Program-made: the position numbers and the translations under genes
Shown here: piece by piece, positions 368 through 56,084 of the stretch
Layout of the letters: the number at the start of each line of letters is the position of its first letter
How positions within the stretch are numbered: position 1 is the first letter of the stretch
DNA from: a virus
Reading direction: 5' to 3' (one strand)
Length of the DNA stretch: 64,000 bases
IMG/VR virus record: IMGVR_UViG_3300045125_000058
Location: 1 to 64,000 of that record
Notes under the pieces: generated by a model
Seen by the model: the letters and a program-made list of their open reading frames with translations, nothing else
What the model was told of the DNA's origin: nothing
Databases searched by the model: none

Positions 368-1986
368 TTATTTATTTTTTCCTAGGTCTGTAAAAGACAT
401 AGAATGGACACTGTAATCAAACTTTTCTTTCTTGTAGATTTTTATACGTTCTTCAAAATGTCGAAAGATGTGATTCTTGTGTGACTTCCAGCAAAGATCA
501 TCAACAATATCATATACTTTGAGTGTTTTCTTTTTGCCGACACGCGTAAACCACGACCAATGCTCTGCAAGAGTCTTATAATCGATTTAGTAGGTGAAGC
601 AAAAATAATATTATCAAGATTGACAATGTTGATGCCAGTGCTAGTCGTACCAAAACTGGCAACCAAAATGGCGTTTGATTCTCTGTCAATAACTCTTCTA
701 ATATATTCTCTTGCGTCTGCTTCTGTTTTTCCGTGTATGAGATATATTTTGCGATCCGTTCCCGCTGCTTCCAAGAGAAGCCTGCGAGTGGTTTCCCGTG
801 GTCTTCGACGTAATTAAAGAGGATAAGGGTATTCCCTTTGGTGCGGAGAGCGAGTTGTTTGATGAATTCGTTTCGCTTTTCATTCGTTACGATCCATTTC
901 AATTCATCAATGTATTTCTGTTTTTTGATGAATTGCTTCTCTTCGTCATTATATTTAAGAATTATGCAATCTATGCCAAGTTTTAGCAAGCAATCCCTTG
1001 TTCATCAAGTCCTTTGGTTTGTATGAACTGAACGGCTGGACCAAGAATACCTTCGATGCTTAATCGATGTGCCTGAGCCTGATCGTAGCGTTCCTGTTGT
1101 GCCAATCCGAAACCAAGCCTTTGAAAGTTTTTGTCCAATGAAGTTTATTGATTCTGCTTTTGCTTGGTGGCATTCATCGAAAAAATACGGCATCAAATTG
1201 GTCAAACCAAGTCTTTGGAAGTTTGTAGATTGATTGCCAAGTAGATACAACTATCTGATTGTTTGATTCTTTTTCTGCCCCAGCAGATATTTTGTGAATG
1301 TACTTTTGCAAGACCAAGACTTGTCATTCATTTGAGTAGTCAAAGAAGTCGGATTCCATCTGATTCACGAGACCAACCGTTGGAACTAATATGAGTATTT
1401 TGCGATCTGATTTTAAGACGGATTTGAAGAAACCGGACCAAGACGTATATGATCAAACTTTTTCCCGAACCAGTAGGAGAAATCAGCACACATCTGTGAT
1501 GATTTAAAGCATGCAGTATAGCCTGTTGTTGATGAGAATGCATTTTCACTGCCTGTTTCTTTACGGAAACCTGCAATGAGTCGTAGAACTGTAAAAGTTT
1601 CTCCTCCGTGATGCATAGAGGATTTTTGCTCTCTTTATATTTAGTGTGATATCCACGATCTTGGCAAAACTTTTCCAAATAAGTTTTCAAACCTCGTGGT
1701 AAGCGTAGAAGAAAGAATGTCATAGAGACGAATTTTTCCATCCCATATTCTTCTTTTGAACATAGGCATATATTGAGCACCCAGGAACCATAAATGAAAA
1801 ATAGTCCCGTAACTCTTGTTTTATGCCTTTGTCGGTTTTTATATAATACCGAACTTCATCAATAGATTCAACTTCAATATCCACATAATATTTAGACTGA
1901 TGCCGTTCATCATTTTGTTGCCAATCAATGGCAGACTTGATCATAAAATTTCTGTTGTTGAGTGATTTTAAAAATTCTTCAACCAT
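368..1986 (-). CDS. uvsW: UvsW-type RNA-DNA/DNA helicase
   Basis: SF2 helicase that in T4 unwinds R-loops and branched DNA during recombination-dependent replication. Reconstructed length is about 540 residues (T4 UvsW is about 500) across several apparent indels. The N-terminal domain is at 1720-1986. Motif I (SPTGSGKS) is at about 1459-1486, the DEAH-type box (FFDECHQA) at about 1155-1190, a motif III-like GTTGTLRSG follows, and motif VI (QSIGRGLR) is at 546-572. The tail ends ...FTDLGKNK with TAA at 368-370. A small gene lies upstream and the LSm-like gene downstream in the same orientation. No late promoter is seen directly before it, so the promoter at 2375-2402 probably serves it. Confidence 0.9.
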
Positions 1987-2003
1987 CTTAATTTTTATTT
2001 CTG

Positions 2004-2340
2004 CTAACAGACAATTTTAGATTTAAGTTCTATAAGTTTTGAGTCTGCATCCATGAATTTATCAACATCGGTCTTAAGAATGTCAAGTTCAAATGGATCT
2101 TCCTTCCAAAGTTCTCAAGTTCTTCTTCAGGATGCCTTACCAGTGTAAATTTTCCATTTACGCAAACGCAATATTGCGAAGTCGTGTTGTTGCTTCGTCA
2201 AAAGTAATTTAAGATCCGTAAAGTTGATTAAGATACTTGGAGTGTATTTGAGGTATCTTAAGAGACTCTAATACCTAATTCTGTAGAGTCTATTTGAGAG
2301 TCTTTAGTAATAGAGTTCTTTAAGGTTCTTCTAGATTCAT
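2004..2340 (-). CDS. Small unrecognised protein (heavily frameshifted)
   Basis: A minus-strand frame ending in TAG at 2004 reads DILKTDVDKFMDADSKLIEL near its C-terminus, and further upstream ITFDEATTRLRNIAFA and NGKFTLVRHPEEELENFG in other frames. These look like one protein of about 110 residues broken by four or five apparent indels. A plausible start is the ATG at 2340 (MNLEEP...), about 28 nt after the predicted transcription start of the promoter at 2375-2402. I do not recognise the family. The gene precedes uvsW by 17 nt and probably shares its mRNA. The N-terminal half is uncertain. Confidence 0.42.
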
Positions 2341-2374: not shown

Positions 2375-2402
2375 ACTATAGAGTATCTCTAGATAAAGTC
2401 AA
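2375..2402 (-). promoter_or_regulatory. Early promoter for the uvsW operon
   Basis: On the minus strand, TTGACT (2402-2397), 16 nt, TATAGT (2380-2375). The geometry equals the other early promoters in the window. Its -35 box shares a palindrome with the opposing promoter at 2413. Confidence 0.7.
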
Positions 2403-2417
2403 ATAAATATATTTGAC
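2398..2417. repeat. Palindrome between divergent early promoters
   Basis: GTCAAATAAATATATTTGAC is an 8-bp inverted repeat with a 4-nt centre. Its arms are the -35 boxes of the two divergent promoters, so the symmetry may arise from the boxes themselves or also serve as an operator. Confidence 0.7.
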
Positions 2418-2440
2418 ATTTCTTTAGTATGTCTTATATT
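2413..2440 (+). promoter_or_regulatory. Early promoter for the glycan module
   Basis: TTGACA, 16 nt, TATATT. The -35 box is perfect. The ATG of the first glycosyltransferase follows 13 nt after the -10 box, so only a very short leader is expected. Confidence 0.78.
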
Positions 2441-2453
2441 ATTGTGAGTACTT

Positions 2454-3100
2454 ATGGCAAAATTGATAATTAAATTTCCAACAAGAAATAGACCAGAAAA
2501 ATTTAAAAAGTTTTACAACGGTACATTGATGGTTTATCCGGGAAACATGATGTAAAATTTGTAATAACAATGGATCATGATGATTCAACAATGAATACGC
2601 CAGAAATCAAAGAATGGTTGAATTCATTGCCTGTACAAATTAAATACAATTATGGTTATTCTAAATCTAAAATTGAAGTTCTGTAAATGCTGATTTAGAA
2701 AACGAAGATGGTGATGTATTGTTACTTGCATCAGATGACATGATACCACAAGTAAAAAATTATGATGACGTAATTTTTGATTGTTTTAGTCAAAGTGTTT
2801 CCAACATTTGACGGTGCAATTAAATTTTATGATGGATTACGAAATGATGATTTGATGACTTTATGTGTTATGGGATGGCCCTTATATAAAGAATTTGGAT
2901 ACATTTATCATCCTGAATATACATCCGTTTATGCTGATAATGAACAAACTATTGTTTTGAAAAAAATGAACAAGTTTGCTATTTCTGATATCTGTATAAT
3001 CAAACATGATTGGACTCGGAACCTTGGGATGCATTACATGCAAGAAATGAAAATTGCAAACATGTATCAAAGAACAAAACAATTCTTGATAAACACATGA
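2454..3100 (+). CDS. Glycosyltransferase-like protein (GT-A type)
   Basis: Begins MAKLIIKFPTRNRPEKF, typical of phage GT2-like enzymes, followed by VITMDHDDS and a second acidic motif LLASDDMIPQ that may bind the metal/nucleotide-sugar. The C-terminal part has a GWPLYKEFGYIYHPEYTS segment and an HDWT motif. Three or more apparent indels (about 2510-2555, 2685, 2785, 3020) break it; the rebuilt length is about 215 residues. It is the first gene of the glycan module. Its end overlaps the next ATG (ATGA), which implies translational coupling. Donor and acceptor are unknown. Confidence 0.65.
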
Positions 3101-3796
3101 GCAGTAAACTTTACATGATAAAGTATCCAACCTACTCAACATGGGTGTAAAGAAATATGCGACAACATGTTGATGTCAGCATCTTCTGTTGGTATTCCAT
3201 ATACAGATTTTAAAATCATAGCCTTTGATCGTCCAATATATGAGTACCATTTAAATAAAAATATTGATACAGATCTTTATGTAGACTCTGATGAAGAAAC
3301 TTACCATGAATGGTCTTGGGATTCTACTTCTAAATTTAGAAATTTAATAAAAAATAAAATGGTCTATTATAAAAAATCAATACACAAACTATAAAAAATT
3401 GGTTTGCTGGATACAGATGTTGTTTTTTTTAAAAATCCCACCGAGTTTTTAAATTCTGCAATACACCAACATTCCAATTAGATTATCCAATTGCGTGTGC
3501 GTGTACTGGTTTCATGTATTTTTCCGGATCATAATCTAAGTGAAAAAATAATAAATGATCTTGGAAATCAAAATACTGAAGACGACCTAAATCATTTGCA
3601 ATCACTATTTGCAAAAAAATAATTTAATGGATCAAGTTAGTTTTTTTAATCTAAATTTATTTCAAATGGAAACTATTTTTATGATTATAAGGGAACGGAT
3701 AAAAATACAGCAGTACTACTGCACTGTAATTATATTCTAGGGTTGGGAAACAAAATAAATAGACTAAAAGAAGAATCTGGAGCTTGGTACTTGTGA
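3097..3796 (+). CDS. Nucleotide-diphospho-sugar transferase-like protein
   Basis: Starts at the ATG that overlaps the previous stop (MSSKLYMIKYPT). The central LLDTDVVFFKNP carries the DxD motif of glycosyltransferases of the Nucleotid_trans type (PF03407-like), and the following DYPIACACTGFMYF and VLLHCNYILGLGNK segments fit that fold. Apparent indels near 3147, 3394, 3460 and 3620 interrupt the frame; about 230 residues once rebuilt. It overlaps the next gene by GTGA. The family assignment is by motif and order; the substrate is unknown. Confidence 0.6.
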
Positions 3797-13543: not shown

Positions 13544-14111
13544 GTGAAAAAGACTAAAAGAAAAAAGCCAAACCATCAGATGCTGATTATGTTGACAATC
13601 AGCAACTTTATGATGCTTTGGTTGAATATAAAAAGAAGTGCAAAGATGCAGACAACTCTGGAAGAAAAAAGCCAAAGTTACCCGACTATATTGGTGAGTG
13701 TGTGTTAAAGATAGCAACAAGACTGTCTTACAGACCAAACTTTGCAAACTATCCATACAGAGATGAGATGGTATCCGACGCGGTGTTAAACTGCATAACT
13801 TACATTGATAACTTTGATCCAAAAAATCAACCAGCCCATTTGGATATCTAACCCAAATATGCTGGTTTTCTTTTGTTCGTATCATAAACAAAGAAAAGAA
13901 AGAAAAGTATGTTCAATACAAGTTTGCTGAACAACAGAATAACAAAGACTTCCAAAACTGGTTCAATGAAACTTATGCTGGTATGGACATAGGAAGACGA
14001 GACTTCTTTGGTCTGACCGATTCCGACATGGAACGGTTTGACGAGATGTGTCAGCCGAAGAAAACAAAAAGAAAAAAGCGAAAACCAAAGCCTGACCCAT
14101 TTGATCTATGA
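13544..14111 (+). CDS. gp55: Late-transcription sigma factor gp55
   Basis: Phage sigma factor that directs host RNA polymerase to TATAAATA late promoters together with the gp45 clamp. Rebuilt protein about 188 residues: VDNQQLYDALVEYKKKC, then PDYIGECVLKIATRLSY and ANYPYRDEMVSDAVLNCI, matching region 2 of T4-like gp55, then a basic C-terminus (PKKTKRKKRKPKPDPFDL). Indels near 13568, 13835 and 13865. GTG start chosen from promoter position. Stop overlaps the gp47 start. Its presence explains the many late promoter motifs in the window. Confidence 0.85.
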
Positions 14112-17366: not shown

Positions 17367-18038
17367 ATGAGTACTGTGACAAAAATGCGTTTGAGTAAAG
17401 AAACATTTAATATTCTTAAAAATTTTTCCTCCATCAATTCAAACATTCTCATCAAGCCAGGGAATGTCTTGAAGACTCGTTCGGCAGGAAGCAACATCTA
17501 TGTAAAGGCCAAGGTTCAAGAGGATTTTGATACTGAGGTAGCCATTTGGGACTTGAACAAGTTCCTTGGAGTAATCAGCATGTTCAACAATCCTGACTTG
17601 GAGTTCCACGATACCCATGTGGATATTTCCAACGGTCGTTCCAGCGTAAAGTATTATTATGCCGAGAAGTCTCTGTTGACTGTCCCAACCAAGGATATCA
17701 ACATGCCCGATGTTCTCTTCACCTTCACGCTTGATGAGCAGGACTTGAACGAGATCATGAAGGCTGCAAGCATTCTTCAGGTCAATGATTTAAAAATTAT
17801 TGCAGGTGACGGCAAGATTCGTCTGACTGTGGATGATTCATCCAACAGCACATCAGACAGTTTTGAGATTATCGTTGAGGAAAACTATGATGGACCAAAT
17901 TATGAAGGACAGATCACGATTGGTGAGATCAAGTTTCTTTCCGGTTCATACAACGTTGATGTAACTGATACTGTTGTGTCACGTTTTACACACACTTCTC
18001 AAGACATTACATACTTCATCGCAATCAACAAGGGATAA
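17367..18038 (+). CDS. gp45: Sliding clamp gp45
   Basis: Intact 223-residue DNA polymerase processivity clamp. Features are KMRLSKETFNILKNFSSIN at the N-terminus, EVAIWDLNKFLGVISMF, the repeated two-domain clamp fold and the ending YFIAINKG. It tethers gp43 to DNA and, in T4-like phages, also activates gp55-dependent late transcription. Two nt separate it from gp44. Confidence 0.93.
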   Translation: MSTVTKMRLSKETFNILKNFSSINSNILIKPGNVLKTRSAGSNIYVKAKVQEDFDTEVAIWDLNKFLGVISMFNNPDLEFHDTHVDISNGRSSVKYYYAEKSLLTVPTKDINMPDVLFTFTLDEQDLNEIMKAASILQVNDLKIIAGDGKIRLTVDDSSNSTSDSFEIIVEENYDGPNYEGQITIGEIKFLSGSYNVDVTDTVVSRFTHTSQDITYFIAINKG

Positions 18039-24739: not shown

Positions 24740-24748
24740 TTTTTATAA

Positions 24749-26281
24749 ATGCCCATTGACTTTCCAAGTTCCCCTGCAACTGGTGTAACATATACATTTA
24801 ATTCCATAACATGGCAATTTGATGGGCTTGCTTGGAATAAGATAGTAAGTGGTGGAAGTGGTGGAATTGGACCACAAGGGAACACAGGAGCCACTGGTGC
24901 TACTGGTCCCCAAGGCATCCAAGGCATTCAGGGAAACACAGGAGCCACTGGTGCCACTGGTCCCACTGGAGCCACTGGTGCCACTGGTCCTCAAGGCATT
25001 CAGGGAAACACAGGAGCCACTGGATCTACTGGTCCCCAAGGCATTCAGGGTCCCACTGGTGCCACTGGTCCCCAAGGCATCCAAGGCATTCAGGGAAACA
25101 CAGGAGCCACTGGTGCCACTGGTGCCACTGGTGCCACTGGTCCCCAAGGCATTCAGGGTCCCACTGGAGCCACTGGTCCCCAAGGCATCCAAGGCATTCA
25201 GGGTCCCACTGGAGCCACTGGTGCCACTGGTCCTCAAGGCATTCAGGGAAACACAGGAGCCACTGGATCTACTGGTCCCCAAGGCATTCACAGGAGAGTC
25301 CCACTGGTGCCACTGGTCCCCAAGGCATCCAAGGCATTCAGGGAAACACAGGAGCCACTGGATGCCACTGGTCCTCAAGGCATTCAGGGAAACACAGGAG
25401 CCACTGGATCTACTGGTCCCCAAGGCATTCAGGGTCCCACTGGAGCCACTGGTCCCCAAGGCATCCAAGGCATTCAGGGAAACACAGGAGCCACTGGTGC
25501 CACTGGTCCTCAAGGCATTCAGGGAAACACAGGAGCCACTGGATCTACTGGTCCCCAAGGCATTCAGGGTCCCACTGGTGCCACTGGTCCCCAAGGCATC
25601 CAAGGCATTCAGGGAAACACAGGAGCCACTGGTGCCACTGGTCCCACTGGAGCCACTGGTGCCACTGGTCCTCAAGGCATTCAGGGAAACACAGGAGCCA
25701 CTGGATCTACTGGTCCCCAAGGCATTCAGGGTCCCACTGGTGCCACTGGTCCCCAAGGCATCCAAGGCATTCAGGGAAACACAGGAGCCACTGGATCTAC
25801 TGGTCCCCAAGGCATCCAAGGCATTCAGGGAAACACAGGAGCCACTGGATCTACTGGTCCCCAAGGCATTCAGGGAAACACAGGAGCCACAGGAGCAACT
25901 GGTCCACAAGGAAATACGGGTGCAACTGGTCCTGTTGGTAATTATGTAATATCTCTCAATGGTCTAACTGGAGGTGTTACATTATATGCTGGTTCTAATA
26001 TTACGCTAACTGTAGCAACAGCAGGAATAACGATTGCTTCAACCGCTTCTGGATCAGGCACACCTGCTGGAGTTACTGGTTCAGTTCAATTTAATACTGG
26101 AACAGCATTTGGTGGTTCTACAGGTTTTATTTGGGATAACACAAATCGAAGACTCGGAATTGGATTAACTGCACCATCAATAGCACTTGATGTAATTGGC
26201 GATGGTGAATTTACTGGAGATGTCTATGTTACCACTAATTTTATCAAGGTAACAAACAACGCTAGACATTGGTTCTTATGA
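24749..26281 (+). CDS. Collagen-like fibre protein 2
   Basis: 510 residues. N-terminal [17 protein letters not shown] with [11 protein letters not shown] is a short attachment module seen again at 28660. Residues about 40-400 are G-X-Y triplets built almost only from [16 protein letters not shown]-type units. A foreign stretch in the array (about 25290-25355) reads [13 protein letters not shown] and returns to frame after a second indel. The C-terminal part ([38 protein letters not shown]) resembles neck and tip segments of phage fibres. Stop overlaps the next start as ATGA. Confidence 0.85.
24871..25935 (+). repeat. Nearly identical collagen-like tandem array
   Basis: Over 1 kb of 9-bp-periodic repeats made of a few recurrent blocks (GGAAACACAGGAGCCACTGG, GGTCCCCAAGGCATTCAGGG). 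Near-identity at DNA level suggests recent expansion and makes assembly length uncertain. Confidence 0.92.
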
Positions 26282-40138: not shown

Positions 40139-40146
40139 TATTTATA
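40139..40146 (-). promoter_or_regulatory. Late promoter TATAAATA for the lysis cassette
   Basis: Minus-strand perfect late box, 26 nt before the ATG at 40112 and back to back with the early promoter at 40150. Confidence 0.72.
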
Positions 40147-40149
40147 TTC

Positions 40150-40177
40150 TTGACACCACACCTAGTGGTGCTATACT
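40150..40177 (+). promoter_or_regulatory. Early promoter for the polymerase/UvsX cluster
   Basis: TTGACA, 16 nt, TATACT: the closest match to consensus in the window. ATG at 40185 is 7 nt after the -10 box, so near-leaderless. Confidence 0.8.
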
Positions 40178-50375: not shown

Positions 50376-50472
50376 GCGTAGTCCAGCAGCGAGATAATCG
50401 TCCGGCTGATAGGATCTTTGATCTAGAACAGAGATCTGATAAGCAATAGAGGTGCAAGTCCTCCACTACGCT
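50376..50472 (+). tRNA. tRNA-like element, identity unresolved
   Basis: 97 nt with a perfect 7-bp acceptor (GCGTAGT/ACTACGC), a D-like arm (CAGC/GCTG) and a T arm (GAGG, loop TGCAAGT, CCTC). The central arm is an 8-bp stem (GATCTTTG/CAGAGATC) with an 8-nt loop ATCTAGAA. If one A is an insertion the loop is ATCTAGA with anticodon CTA, which would read UAG; a damaged class II tRNA (Leu/Ser) or a tRNA-like RNA are alternatives. Confidence 0.55.
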
Positions 50473-50475
50473 TTG

Positions 50476-50675
50476 GTATTGTTGATATCAGATAGAAATG
50501 TGTATGACACGGGAGTTCGAATCTCCCCGGATCCACTATACGGGTCCGACAGGCATCGATCAGCGCAAAGTATTAAAGAAGGAGATACCCGACACGGGTA
50601 ACAAGTGTCGTAAATAAACAGTTGCAACAACAAAAGCCGCACCATTGCGGATGGCTGCTTAAAGCAGTGGGGTTT
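50476..50675 (+). ncRNA. ssrA: Circularly permuted tmRNA
   Basis: In gene order: T arm GGGAG/CTCCC with TTCGAAT (50511-50527); 3' acceptor strand CGGATCC plus discriminator A (50528-50535); 6-nt intervening CTATAC; 5' acceptor strand GGGTCCG (50542-50548), which pairs over all 7 positions; D-like region; pseudoknot PK1 with stems ACCC/GGGT and GACAC/GTGTC (50587-50609); then AAACAGTT before the resume codon GCA at 50624. The tag frame 50624-50662 encodes ATTKAAPLRMAA and stop, with the stop in the loop of a CTGCT/AGCAG hairpin, as in bacterial tmRNA. Acceptor halves in reversed order define a two-piece, permuted tmRNA. The 5' boundary is approximate. It would rescue stalled ribosomes and tag peptides for proteolysis. 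Confidence 0.88.
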
Positions 50676-50711
50676 CCCGGTTTTCCCGCGACTGAAAAAC
50701 CGGGATTTTTT
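50676..50711 (+). terminator. Rho-independent terminator of the RNA cluster
   Basis: Stem CCCGGTTTT/AAAACCGGG with an 11-nt loop, followed by ATTTTTT. Confidence 0.9.
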
Positions 50712-50716
50712 ATTGG

Positions 50717-50724
50717 CATAAATA
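50717..50724 (+). promoter_or_regulatory. Late-type promoter CATAAATA
   Basis: Just after the terminator and 13 nt before the micro-ORF ATG at 50738. Confidence 0.5.
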
Positions 50725-50737
50725 ATTTTGCCAAAGG

Positions 50738-50821
50738 ATGTTGGATACCGCATTTTCTCTTGAGTCTTCGAAGTACCACCCAACAGAAAATTTAGGTCCA
50801 CATCCTTTGAGCGAGGTATAA
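50738..50821 (+). CDS. 27-residue micro-ORF
   Basis: ATG after an AAAGG ribosome-like site: MLDTAFSLESSKYHPTENLG, then PHPLSEV. The stop TAA is inside the next TATAAATA late promoter, the same arrangement as in confirmed genes of this phage, which is the main reason to list it. No known homologue. Confidence 0.45.
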   Translation: MLDTAFSLESSKYHPTENLGPHPLSEV

Positions 50822-53656: not shown

Positions 53657-56084
53657 ATGGATCATCTGACAAATCTCTATCGTAATAGAGCAATTCAATT
53701 ACAGAACAAAGTTCAGTTGCTTGAGCAACTTCTTTCTGAAAAGGAAGACAAGGAACCGAATGTGTACAGACAATCCGAGGCTTCTGCTGCTATGCAACAA
53801 CCATGGAGAGTTGCTGCAGGACAAGAAGCATCTGTCCCTGAAAAACAAATGGCAGAACTTCAGGCAAGATTTGAAAAAGAACTAAAGAAAGAAACTCTCT
53901 TAAGAAAAGCACAAGAGGAAAAAATCTTGCTGCTATGCCACCTGAAATGCGCAAAGAATATTTAAAAGGCGCTGATAAAATAACAGATGAAATGGTAAGA
54001 GATCAGGCTTTAAAGGCTGTTGTATTCAAGCATCCAGAACTTTCTGATGTTCTCCCCGAACAAGATTATGAAAGATTGGCTGGAAGTTTGACAAGTCCTC
54101 TTGTTGTTAGCAAGAGAGGAACTTTCTATGAACATCAACCAAATCTTTCCTCTGAAGCATTGGAGGGGTTAGTTGCCGCACAACAAGCAGCACAAGGTCC
54201 CACCGAAGATGGTGGAAATAGAGTTGGTTTCCAAATCGTAACACCAGCACATAAATCTTTCAAAGATGCTGGTTCTTGGGAAAAATTTGTAACAAAAACA
54301 ATTGAAGCCTCTAAAGATCCTGAAAATATTAAATCAGCTATTGCGATGGGAATTCCAGTTGGTATTGCTAGAAAAGGCGGACAATTACTTCTTAAACCTG
54401 TTGTTGGTGCAATAGAAAGAGCTGGAGCAAAAACAGCCGCCAAAGCAGTATCTGCAATACCTGATGTTGCTTTAGGAACAGCATTGGTTGCGGGAACTGC
54501 AATTGATGTCGCACAAGAAAGAGAAAGAGCCGCCAAAGGACTTTCAAGTACTACTTGGCAAGAAACTCTTGGAAGATTGGTTCCATCACTTGCATATGGT
54601 GCCCCCGGCTTTGCCACAGGGCAGGGTGTATTTGGAACTGTTGGTGCGGCTGGACGATCCAGAATTTCTTCTGGCATGGTTCCTTCTGCACGCGGTGAAA
54701 TATCTGTAAAACCAGAACCAGCAAGAGCAGCAGGACCAAAACTACCTGAAACAAAATTTGAAGTTCCAGCACAAGAACCATTTGCTCCAAAAATGGAGCC
54801 AATGACCGATGTAAAACCAAGAGTAAGAATGGTCCGTGGAAAATATGGTGAAATTACATTTGAATTGGTTGGTGAAAGAGGACAAGTACAAGTTCCCGGT
54901 GGCCAAAGAATTTCAGGCAAACCAGAAGGAATCAATCTTCGTGGTATGGAAGGACGAAGACCAAGTGAACCAAAACCATCTCTACCTCTTCCAAGTGAAA
55001 CCGCAGTACCAAAAGCACAACAAACACAAGCATCAGTTGTTTCAGACATTGCAAACATGATTATTAATCCGCTTCAATTTTCACTAGATAAAATTAGAGC
55101 GGAAAGAATGTCTCCAAAACCAATACAAGTTGGCGTAGAACCTGCTAGATTGCCGACTCCAACTACACCTAAACAAATAAAAGCATATTTTGATGAACCA
55201 TATGCTTGGCGAAAAGCTTATGCTGATGCTGCAGCCAAAGCAGAACCAACTTTCTTCAGCTAAACCAACAGAACCACCATCTGCAGGAAGAGTTGCAGCC
55301 ACAGTTATGGGAATTCCTGGAGCAATTTCAGCCGCAGAAGCACCAATTACACCAAGAGGACTTCCACCAGTTGCAGCAGAAGTTTCAAGAATGCCTGCAC
55401 GAACTGAAACTGCTCCAAGAATTGTTGTAGAGCACTGGAGTAAGCGCACCATCAGCAAGACCTAGCGGAGTTTCTGTTTCTCCAGAAGTTTCTCCTGCTC
55501 GTACTCCAACAAAATTAAGTTTATTGGACTTGGTAATGCCCAAGCAAATTGGAGATACCGTAAAACAAGCAGCAAAAGCACAAGAAACCGCTAAAGAAGC
55601 AGAGAAGGCACCTGAAGCAGCAAAAGCACAAGAAACCGCTAAAGAAGCAGAAAAAGCACCAGAAGCAGCAAAAGAAGCAGAAAAAACTGAAGATGCTGCT
55701 AAAGATATTGCAAAAGAAACTCAAAAAGCAACAGAAGATGCAACTCAAAAAGCAACAGAACGTGCAGAAGATACTAGCAAAGAAACTTCAAGTTCAACTG
55801 TAAGCGCTTTGGCTACTTCTCTGTCAACTGCAGCCACATCGGTTGTGAATACATTTAATCAATGGGGACAAAGCAGAGTAAACTATCCACCAGATAAACC
55901 TCCTGTTGCACCTCAAAGACGAGGTCGTGGTAACGAAGGTGGTGGATTGACACCTGGAATTCCATCAAATAAAGGTGGTATGGGTACAGGTGGAAAGGGT
56001 GCTCAAGAAAAATTGGGTATTGATTTGACGGCAGATTCTTGGGGTGGAAAATATTCAAGATATTTAAAAATTGCACCTTCGTAA
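53657..56084 (+). CDS. Very large low-complexity virion-type protein
   Basis: About 808 residues, indels near 53925, 55258 and 55435. Starts MDHLTNLYRNRAIQLQNKVQ with a coiled coil; the middle has a hydrophobic Ala/Gly-rich stretch (GTALVAGTAIDVAQERERAA; LAYGAPGFATGQGVFGTVGA) and a Pro-rich domain; then A-K-E-A-E-K-A-P repeats (55570-55770), and a C-terminus with GKYSRYLKIAPS. The glycine/alanine helix resembles membrane- or DNA-penetrating segments of ejected internal proteins. Function unknown; transcription is late from 52191. Confidence 0.65.
55565..55770 (+). repeat. Lys/Ala/Glu repeat in virion protein
   Basis: Tandem units encoding A-Q-E-T-A-K-E-A-E-K-A-P-E-A-A-K, about 16 residues each, then a degenerate K-A-T-E-D-A-T-Q part. 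Confidence 0.85.

Follow-up and report, generated by a model that had tools for sequence, protein, structure and literature searches.

Back-to-back divergent sigma70 promoters occur in many phage and bacterial control regions. In T4, uvsY is a middle gene and uvsW is a late gene. For two T4-like phages without MotA, RB49 and the cyanophage S-PM2, overlapping early and late promoters have been proposed for the middle-mode genes (excerpt of PMC2984593), and the late motif of S-PM2 is given there as NATAAATA. The late motif of T4-like phages is TATAAATA, which occupies positions -13 to -6, the base at -13 being A or T; that of phage Aeh1 is CTAAATA (both from an excerpt of PMC1524935). The locus described here probably combines these elements in a nested triple promoter, made up of two early promoters, one for uvsY and one for a glycan operon, and of a gp55-type late promoter that serves the glycan operon as well.

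The window, the site and its flanking genes

The window is the whole stretch of DNA that was analysed, 64,000 nucleotides corresponding to positions 1-64,000 of the IMG/VR record IMGVR_UViG_3300045125_000058, and belongs to a T4-related family of uncultured phages. Its bases 43-92 are 100% identical to the end of phage Mu and resemble the transposase adapter of a nanopore rapid kit. Alignment of the first 2.4 kb with relatives opens 23-28 gaps, whereas one relative against the others opens 0-4. Because of the Mu-end match and the many indels in its genes, the record has the appearance of an uncorrected nanopore read that still includes its transposase adapter. uvsY, uvsW and the first gene of the glycan operon are all broken by read errors in the window, and the first query used to find uvsW relatives was itself a read-error fusion that joins the last part of uvsY to the first part of uvsW; it still retrieved relatives. 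Elsewhere the window carries a tmRNA gene (50445-50753, predicted tag ATTKAAPLRMAA) adjoining three tRNA genes, and long collagen-like GPQG/GNTGATG repeats within a reading frame at 24743-26281.

The features on which the analysis draws are the following:

395-1884, minus strand: uvsW helicase gene, left end approximate, intact copy in the relative L089
1889-1896, minus strand: late-promoter-like motif TCTAAATA, 4 nt ahead of the uvsW GTG start
1892-2340, minus strand: uvsY, first leftward gene, aligned with intact relatives, ATG at 2340
2375-2380, minus strand: -10 box TATAGT of the putative early promoter for uvsY, 16-nt spacer
2397-2402, minus strand: -35 box TTGACT of the putative early promoter for uvsY, from the sequence and from TTGAC in all 208 related IMG/VR loci
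2398-2417, no strand: palindrome GTCAAATAAATATATTTGAC, 20 bp, the sum of two -35 boxes and a late motif
2402-2409, plus strand: late-promoter-like motif AATAAATA, aimed at the glycan operon, with a start predicted near 2415
2413-2418, plus strand: -35 box TTGACA of the putative early promoter for the glycan operon, from sequence and conservation
2435-2440, plus strand: -10 box TATATT of the putative early promoter for the glycan operon, 16-nt spacer
2444-2448, plus strand: GTGAG, a weak Shine-Dalgarno-like sequence ahead of the glycosyltransferase ATG at 2454
2454-3115, plus strand: glycosyltransferase, first gene of the glycan operon, right end approximate
13618-13851, plus strand: gp55 (partial), late sigma factor and presumed reader of the late motif (PHROG 234, E 2.8e-30)
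17367-18038: sliding clamp (PHROG 223)

The initial annotation of this DNA had described two promoters with 16-nt spacers diverging from a palindrome at 2375-2440, and promoters, palindrome and coordinates are confirmed by the sequence. It had equated the arms of the palindrome with the -35 boxes. This is true of the outer 5 bp of each of the perfect 8-bp arms, which flank AATA, but not of the inner 3 bp. It had further proposed that the uvsW operon and the glycan operon could be controlled together. The first leftward gene, however, is uvsY, and uvsW starts only at about 1884. The intact copy of uvsY in L089 matches PHROG 231, and the intact homologue of the glycosyltransferase (L089, 3866-4528) matches the glycosyltransferase family PHROG 14945. 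A Shine-Dalgarno-like sequence similar to GTGAG is found at the same place in many aligned relatives. The divergent first gene varies among relatives, while the site itself stays.

From the sequence we infer sigma70-type promoter activity at the site: the boxes are TTGACA-like and TATAAT-like, conserved and 16-18 nt apart, and the pattern TTGAC-N16-18-TATANT exceeds its reversed control when summed over the ten records searched. The plus-strand promoter has an alternative -10 box, TATTAT, at 18 nt. A strict search for the complete double promoter gives one hit in the window and none in 60 shuffles, and the 20-mer, with at most three mismatches allowed, is found at one place where 0.03 would be expected.

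Conservation of the site and the question of an operator

A UvsY profile run on all fetched loci gave 232 matches, of which 216 with at least 150 nt of upstream DNA were kept and 16 were dropped. The core GTCAA-N9/10-TTGAC precedes uvsY in 208 of 208 related IMG/VR loci, which amount to 79 distinct contexts; since many of these loci are closely related, the number 208 overstates their independence. The 8 of the 216 loci that have no core are all the loci of six reference T4-like phages (HTVC008M, S-SSM7, ACP17, AG-345-L05, Sf-FS3 and C48C1), and before uvsY the site is absent from all six. In the five annotated ones uvsY stands after genes of the same direction. A nucleotide search of phage records with the intact region of a relative gave no match.

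In an earlier set the core was present in 72 of 75 stretches, a further 6 of 81 having been left out as too short. For the three stretches lacking it (L098, L104 and L110) the query match is limited to the uvsW part, and their contigs do hold the palindrome (L041, L054 and L035). One locus comparison omitted 6 of 80 loci with short upstream DNA. On the uvsY side a -10-like hexamer lies 16 nt from the -35 box in 68 of 72 loci and 17 nt from it in 4, and on the glycan side TATATT or TATAAT is found at 16 nt in 71 loci and at 17 nt in one. Some relatives have an imperfect -10 box for uvsY (TACATT, TATTTT). Conservation in related phages had been named in the initial annotation as a check of its reading, and with the core in all 208 related loci it bears out two conserved back-to-back early promoters that share one element.

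This conservation also speaks to the suspicion that the palindrome is a chance product or an artefact of read errors. The window does resemble an uncorrected nanopore read, and inverted repeats with 8-bp arms and a 4-nt loop are not rare in it (3, against 1, 3 and 2 in three shuffles), so that the rarity of the palindrome alone was not significant and was discarded as evidence. Yet the identical 20-mer precedes uvsY in 50 of the 79 contexts, which come from other records. An accidental origin is refuted by this and is extremely improbable; because the palindrome is conserved before uvsY in other records, it is no read error.

Nine core sequences make up the 79 contexts: the 20-mer of the window (50 contexts, as stated), GTCAACTAAATAACTTGAC (18), GTCAACTAAATATCTTGAC (5) and six others, each found once. 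They allow an assessment of the proposal that the palindrome is an operator through which one dimeric phage or host protein controls both early promoters. Several observations would fit such a protein. The arms are perfect over 8 bp in the 50 contexts and extend to 9 bp in L086; two variants (L086 and L157/L158) have changed both members of an inner pair, as would suit a protein that reads the dyad; and three core bases that belong neither to a -35 box nor to the late motif are 84-92% conserved in the 20-bp group, against flank means of 62-70%, which leaves room for a further constraint. Of all core positions in the earlier set, however, bases of this kind were the least conserved, as the nested triple promoter would have it.

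However, neither dyad symmetry beyond the -35 boxes nor a constant half-site spacing is kept. The -35 boxes are 10 bp apart in 55 of the 79 contexts and 9 bp apart in 24, and the first pair inside the boxes is symmetric in 4 of the 9 core variants but asymmetric in 5. The conserved centre is asymmetric as well and matches the late motif. The loci with the altered palindromic spacing still have a -10-like hexamer to either side, 16 nt away in nearly every case. Relatives that keep both promoters without the palindromic spacing are just what the initial annotation had listed as counter-evidence to its idea of a single repressor or activator bound to the palindrome, and the 24 contexts with 9 bp are of this kind. 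That idea is not supported, and the operator was rejected as the best reading; we regard it as unlikely. A regulon of many sites was rejected too. Each of 16 records has a single such site, their other matches to GTCAA-N8-12-TTGAC being scattered and unlike it, and because of this single occurrence per phage record the site does not define a regulon.

The late-promoter motif and predicted leaderless mRNAs

All 9 core variants have [AC]TAAATA at the centre of the site, read along the glycan strand. 7-mers were counted in the 80 nt upstream of 428 ORFs of three large relatives and compared with genome rates. ATAAATA heads the list (70 genes versus 6.3 expected, 19 on the opposite strand), followed by CTAAATA (44 versus 2.8, 9 on the opposite strand). 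A TATAAATA-like motif is thus enriched upstream of genes on the coding strand, as expected for T4-type late promoters, and gp55 and the sliding clamp, which such promoters call for, are encoded; gp55 is found in 8 of 8 records. In 77 of 77 relatives the motif is also found ahead of uvsW, as a rule 4 nt from the GTG (69 matched by pattern, 8 by eye), and in the window TCTAAATA overlaps the stop codon of uvsY. Unlike the motifs of many genes in the relatives, the central one is not 5 nt from an ATG, its predicted leader being about 39 nt long.

Both the late motif and the region around it are A/T-rich, and one could suppose that only the two early promoters matter, which would compete for the host polymerase and share the A/T-rich centre as an UP-like element. 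Both early promoters are conserved, and at other places the relatives have back-to-back TTGAC pairs, separated by gaps of 3, 4 and 14, as this explanation would have it. On the other hand, the centre shows [AC]TAAATA in a single orientation in every variant, the same 7-mers top the gene-upstream list, and at other sites TATTTA lies 1, 3 or 5 nt from TTGAC, unlike a fixed upstream element. We therefore consider it improbable that the early promoters are all there is.

The motif GTCAA-N0-8-[AC]TAAATA, an early box opposed to a late motif, occurs 18 times in four sequences against 3.55 expected, and 2 times and once in two control orientations. Because an early box facing away from a late motif recurs in this way, the site fits a family-wide habit of placing an early box near a late motif, here with a second early promoter added.

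A separate shared site, GTCAAGAATATAAATA, is present in the window (40146-40177) and in three of three relatives (G001 at 54631, G005 at 134074 and G013 at 86929); it has an early promoter one way and a late motif the other way.

The spacing of 5 nt was followed in these three relatives, which correspond to the loci L160-L179, counting ATGs that open an ORF of at least 80 codons. [AC]TAAATA stands exactly 5 nt before the ATG 14, 14 and 11 times in G005, G001 and G013, 39 cases in the three records, and 0-4 times at other distances. In a 45-kb stretch of T4 there are 0 late motifs at 5 nt and a peak near 27-28 nt, and HTVC008M has 3 at 5 nt. Early -10 boxes show a comparable preference, lying 6 nt before an ATG or GTG 16, 9 and 14 times (39 in total) versus 0-3 elsewhere. 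Of the 428 called ORFs, 34 are such late cases, and none of these has a Shine-Dalgarno-like sequence. A late motif at -13 to -6 that ends 5 nt from the ATG puts +1 on the A of the ATG, and leaderless mRNAs are therefore predicted; unlike T4, this T4-like family is predicted to use them. The window itself shows no peak of this kind, as expected if read errors blur the starts. G005 also has, at about 81-94 kb, many promoters of the form TTGACA-N17-TACAAT, which are often preceded by a TG and located 6 nt ahead of the ATG and which differ from the N16 type found elsewhere in the phage.

Judged by titles and the beginnings of abstracts, the literature searched gave no report of leaderless mRNAs in T4-like phages; PMC9004378, seen as an excerpt, mentions the term by way of a reference title. 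If RNA mapping confirms the prediction, these phages have a translation strategy clearly unlike that of T4, which would be a clue to their hosts. Actinobacteria as the host is only a guess from the leaderless pattern.

The probable nested promoters compared with known systems

How could the nested triple promoter work? Host RNA polymerase with its main sigma factor would first drive the two divergent early promoters, those of uvsY and of the glycan operon. With 9-10 bp between the -35 boxes there would be room for one polymerase at a time: polymerase footprints make simultaneous occupation at this spacing unlikely, and hence the two early promoters are unlikely to be occupied together. Between the boxes would lie the T4-type late -10 element [AC]TAAATA, aimed at the glycan operon. 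Later, gp55 and the sliding clamp would direct the polymerase to the central TAAATA with a start near 2415. In this position the polymerase would sustain transcription of the glycan operon and at the same time cover the -35 box of the uvsY promoter. The predicted timing is early for uvsY, early and late for the glycan genes, and late for uvsW through its own motif. Both the mutual exclusion and the switch from early to late are our inference. The palindrome would then be a by-product, formed by inverted -35 boxes that flank an A/T-rich late motif.

A more far-reaching version, which we put forward tentatively, is that the gp55-polymerase at the nested TAAATA covers both -35 boxes and so blocks both early promoters. 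As a result uvsY would be switched off and the glycan operon would come under late control without a repressor, in a family that would also make wide use of leaderless mRNAs. Control by MotA or AsiA was rejected, as neither has a match in 8 of 8 records, in a search that found the T4 positive control. If the nested promoters are real, a T4-like phage without detectable MotA and AsiA can time its recombination and surface-sugar genes by promoter geometry alone. They would also be a caution against taking every palindrome between divergent phage promoters for an operator, since some can be nested promoters.

Set against T4, where uvsY is middle, uvsY here has only a putative early promoter at the site, while for uvsW the late timing predicted from its own motif is that of the T4 gene. 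The late element resembles the gp55-read T4-type late promoter in its [AC]TAAATA motif and in the presence of genes for gp55 and the sliding clamp (PMC2988020 and PMC1524935, in excerpts). It differs in that the late motif of the relatives is often exactly 5 nt from the ATG, which would put +1 on the start codon, whereas the T4 stretch peaks at 27-28 nt. Like other back-to-back sigma70 promoters, the site has outward -35 boxes with little DNA between them, and the polymerases should exclude each other; unlike the usual regions of this type it has a late element in the gap, and no operator or repressor gene was identified. The putative new part is the divergent nesting of a late motif with a second early promoter, of which the open-licence text of PubMed Central yielded no description. 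The site also resembles the arrangement proposed for RB49 and S-PM2 (excerpt of PMC2984593): these too are T4-like phages without MotA in which a group of genes has an early and a late promoter upstream, here recognized by sequence only. Unlike the arrangement given for them in that excerpt, the late motif here is enclosed by two divergent early -35 boxes and shares sequence with the promoter of the opposite operon.
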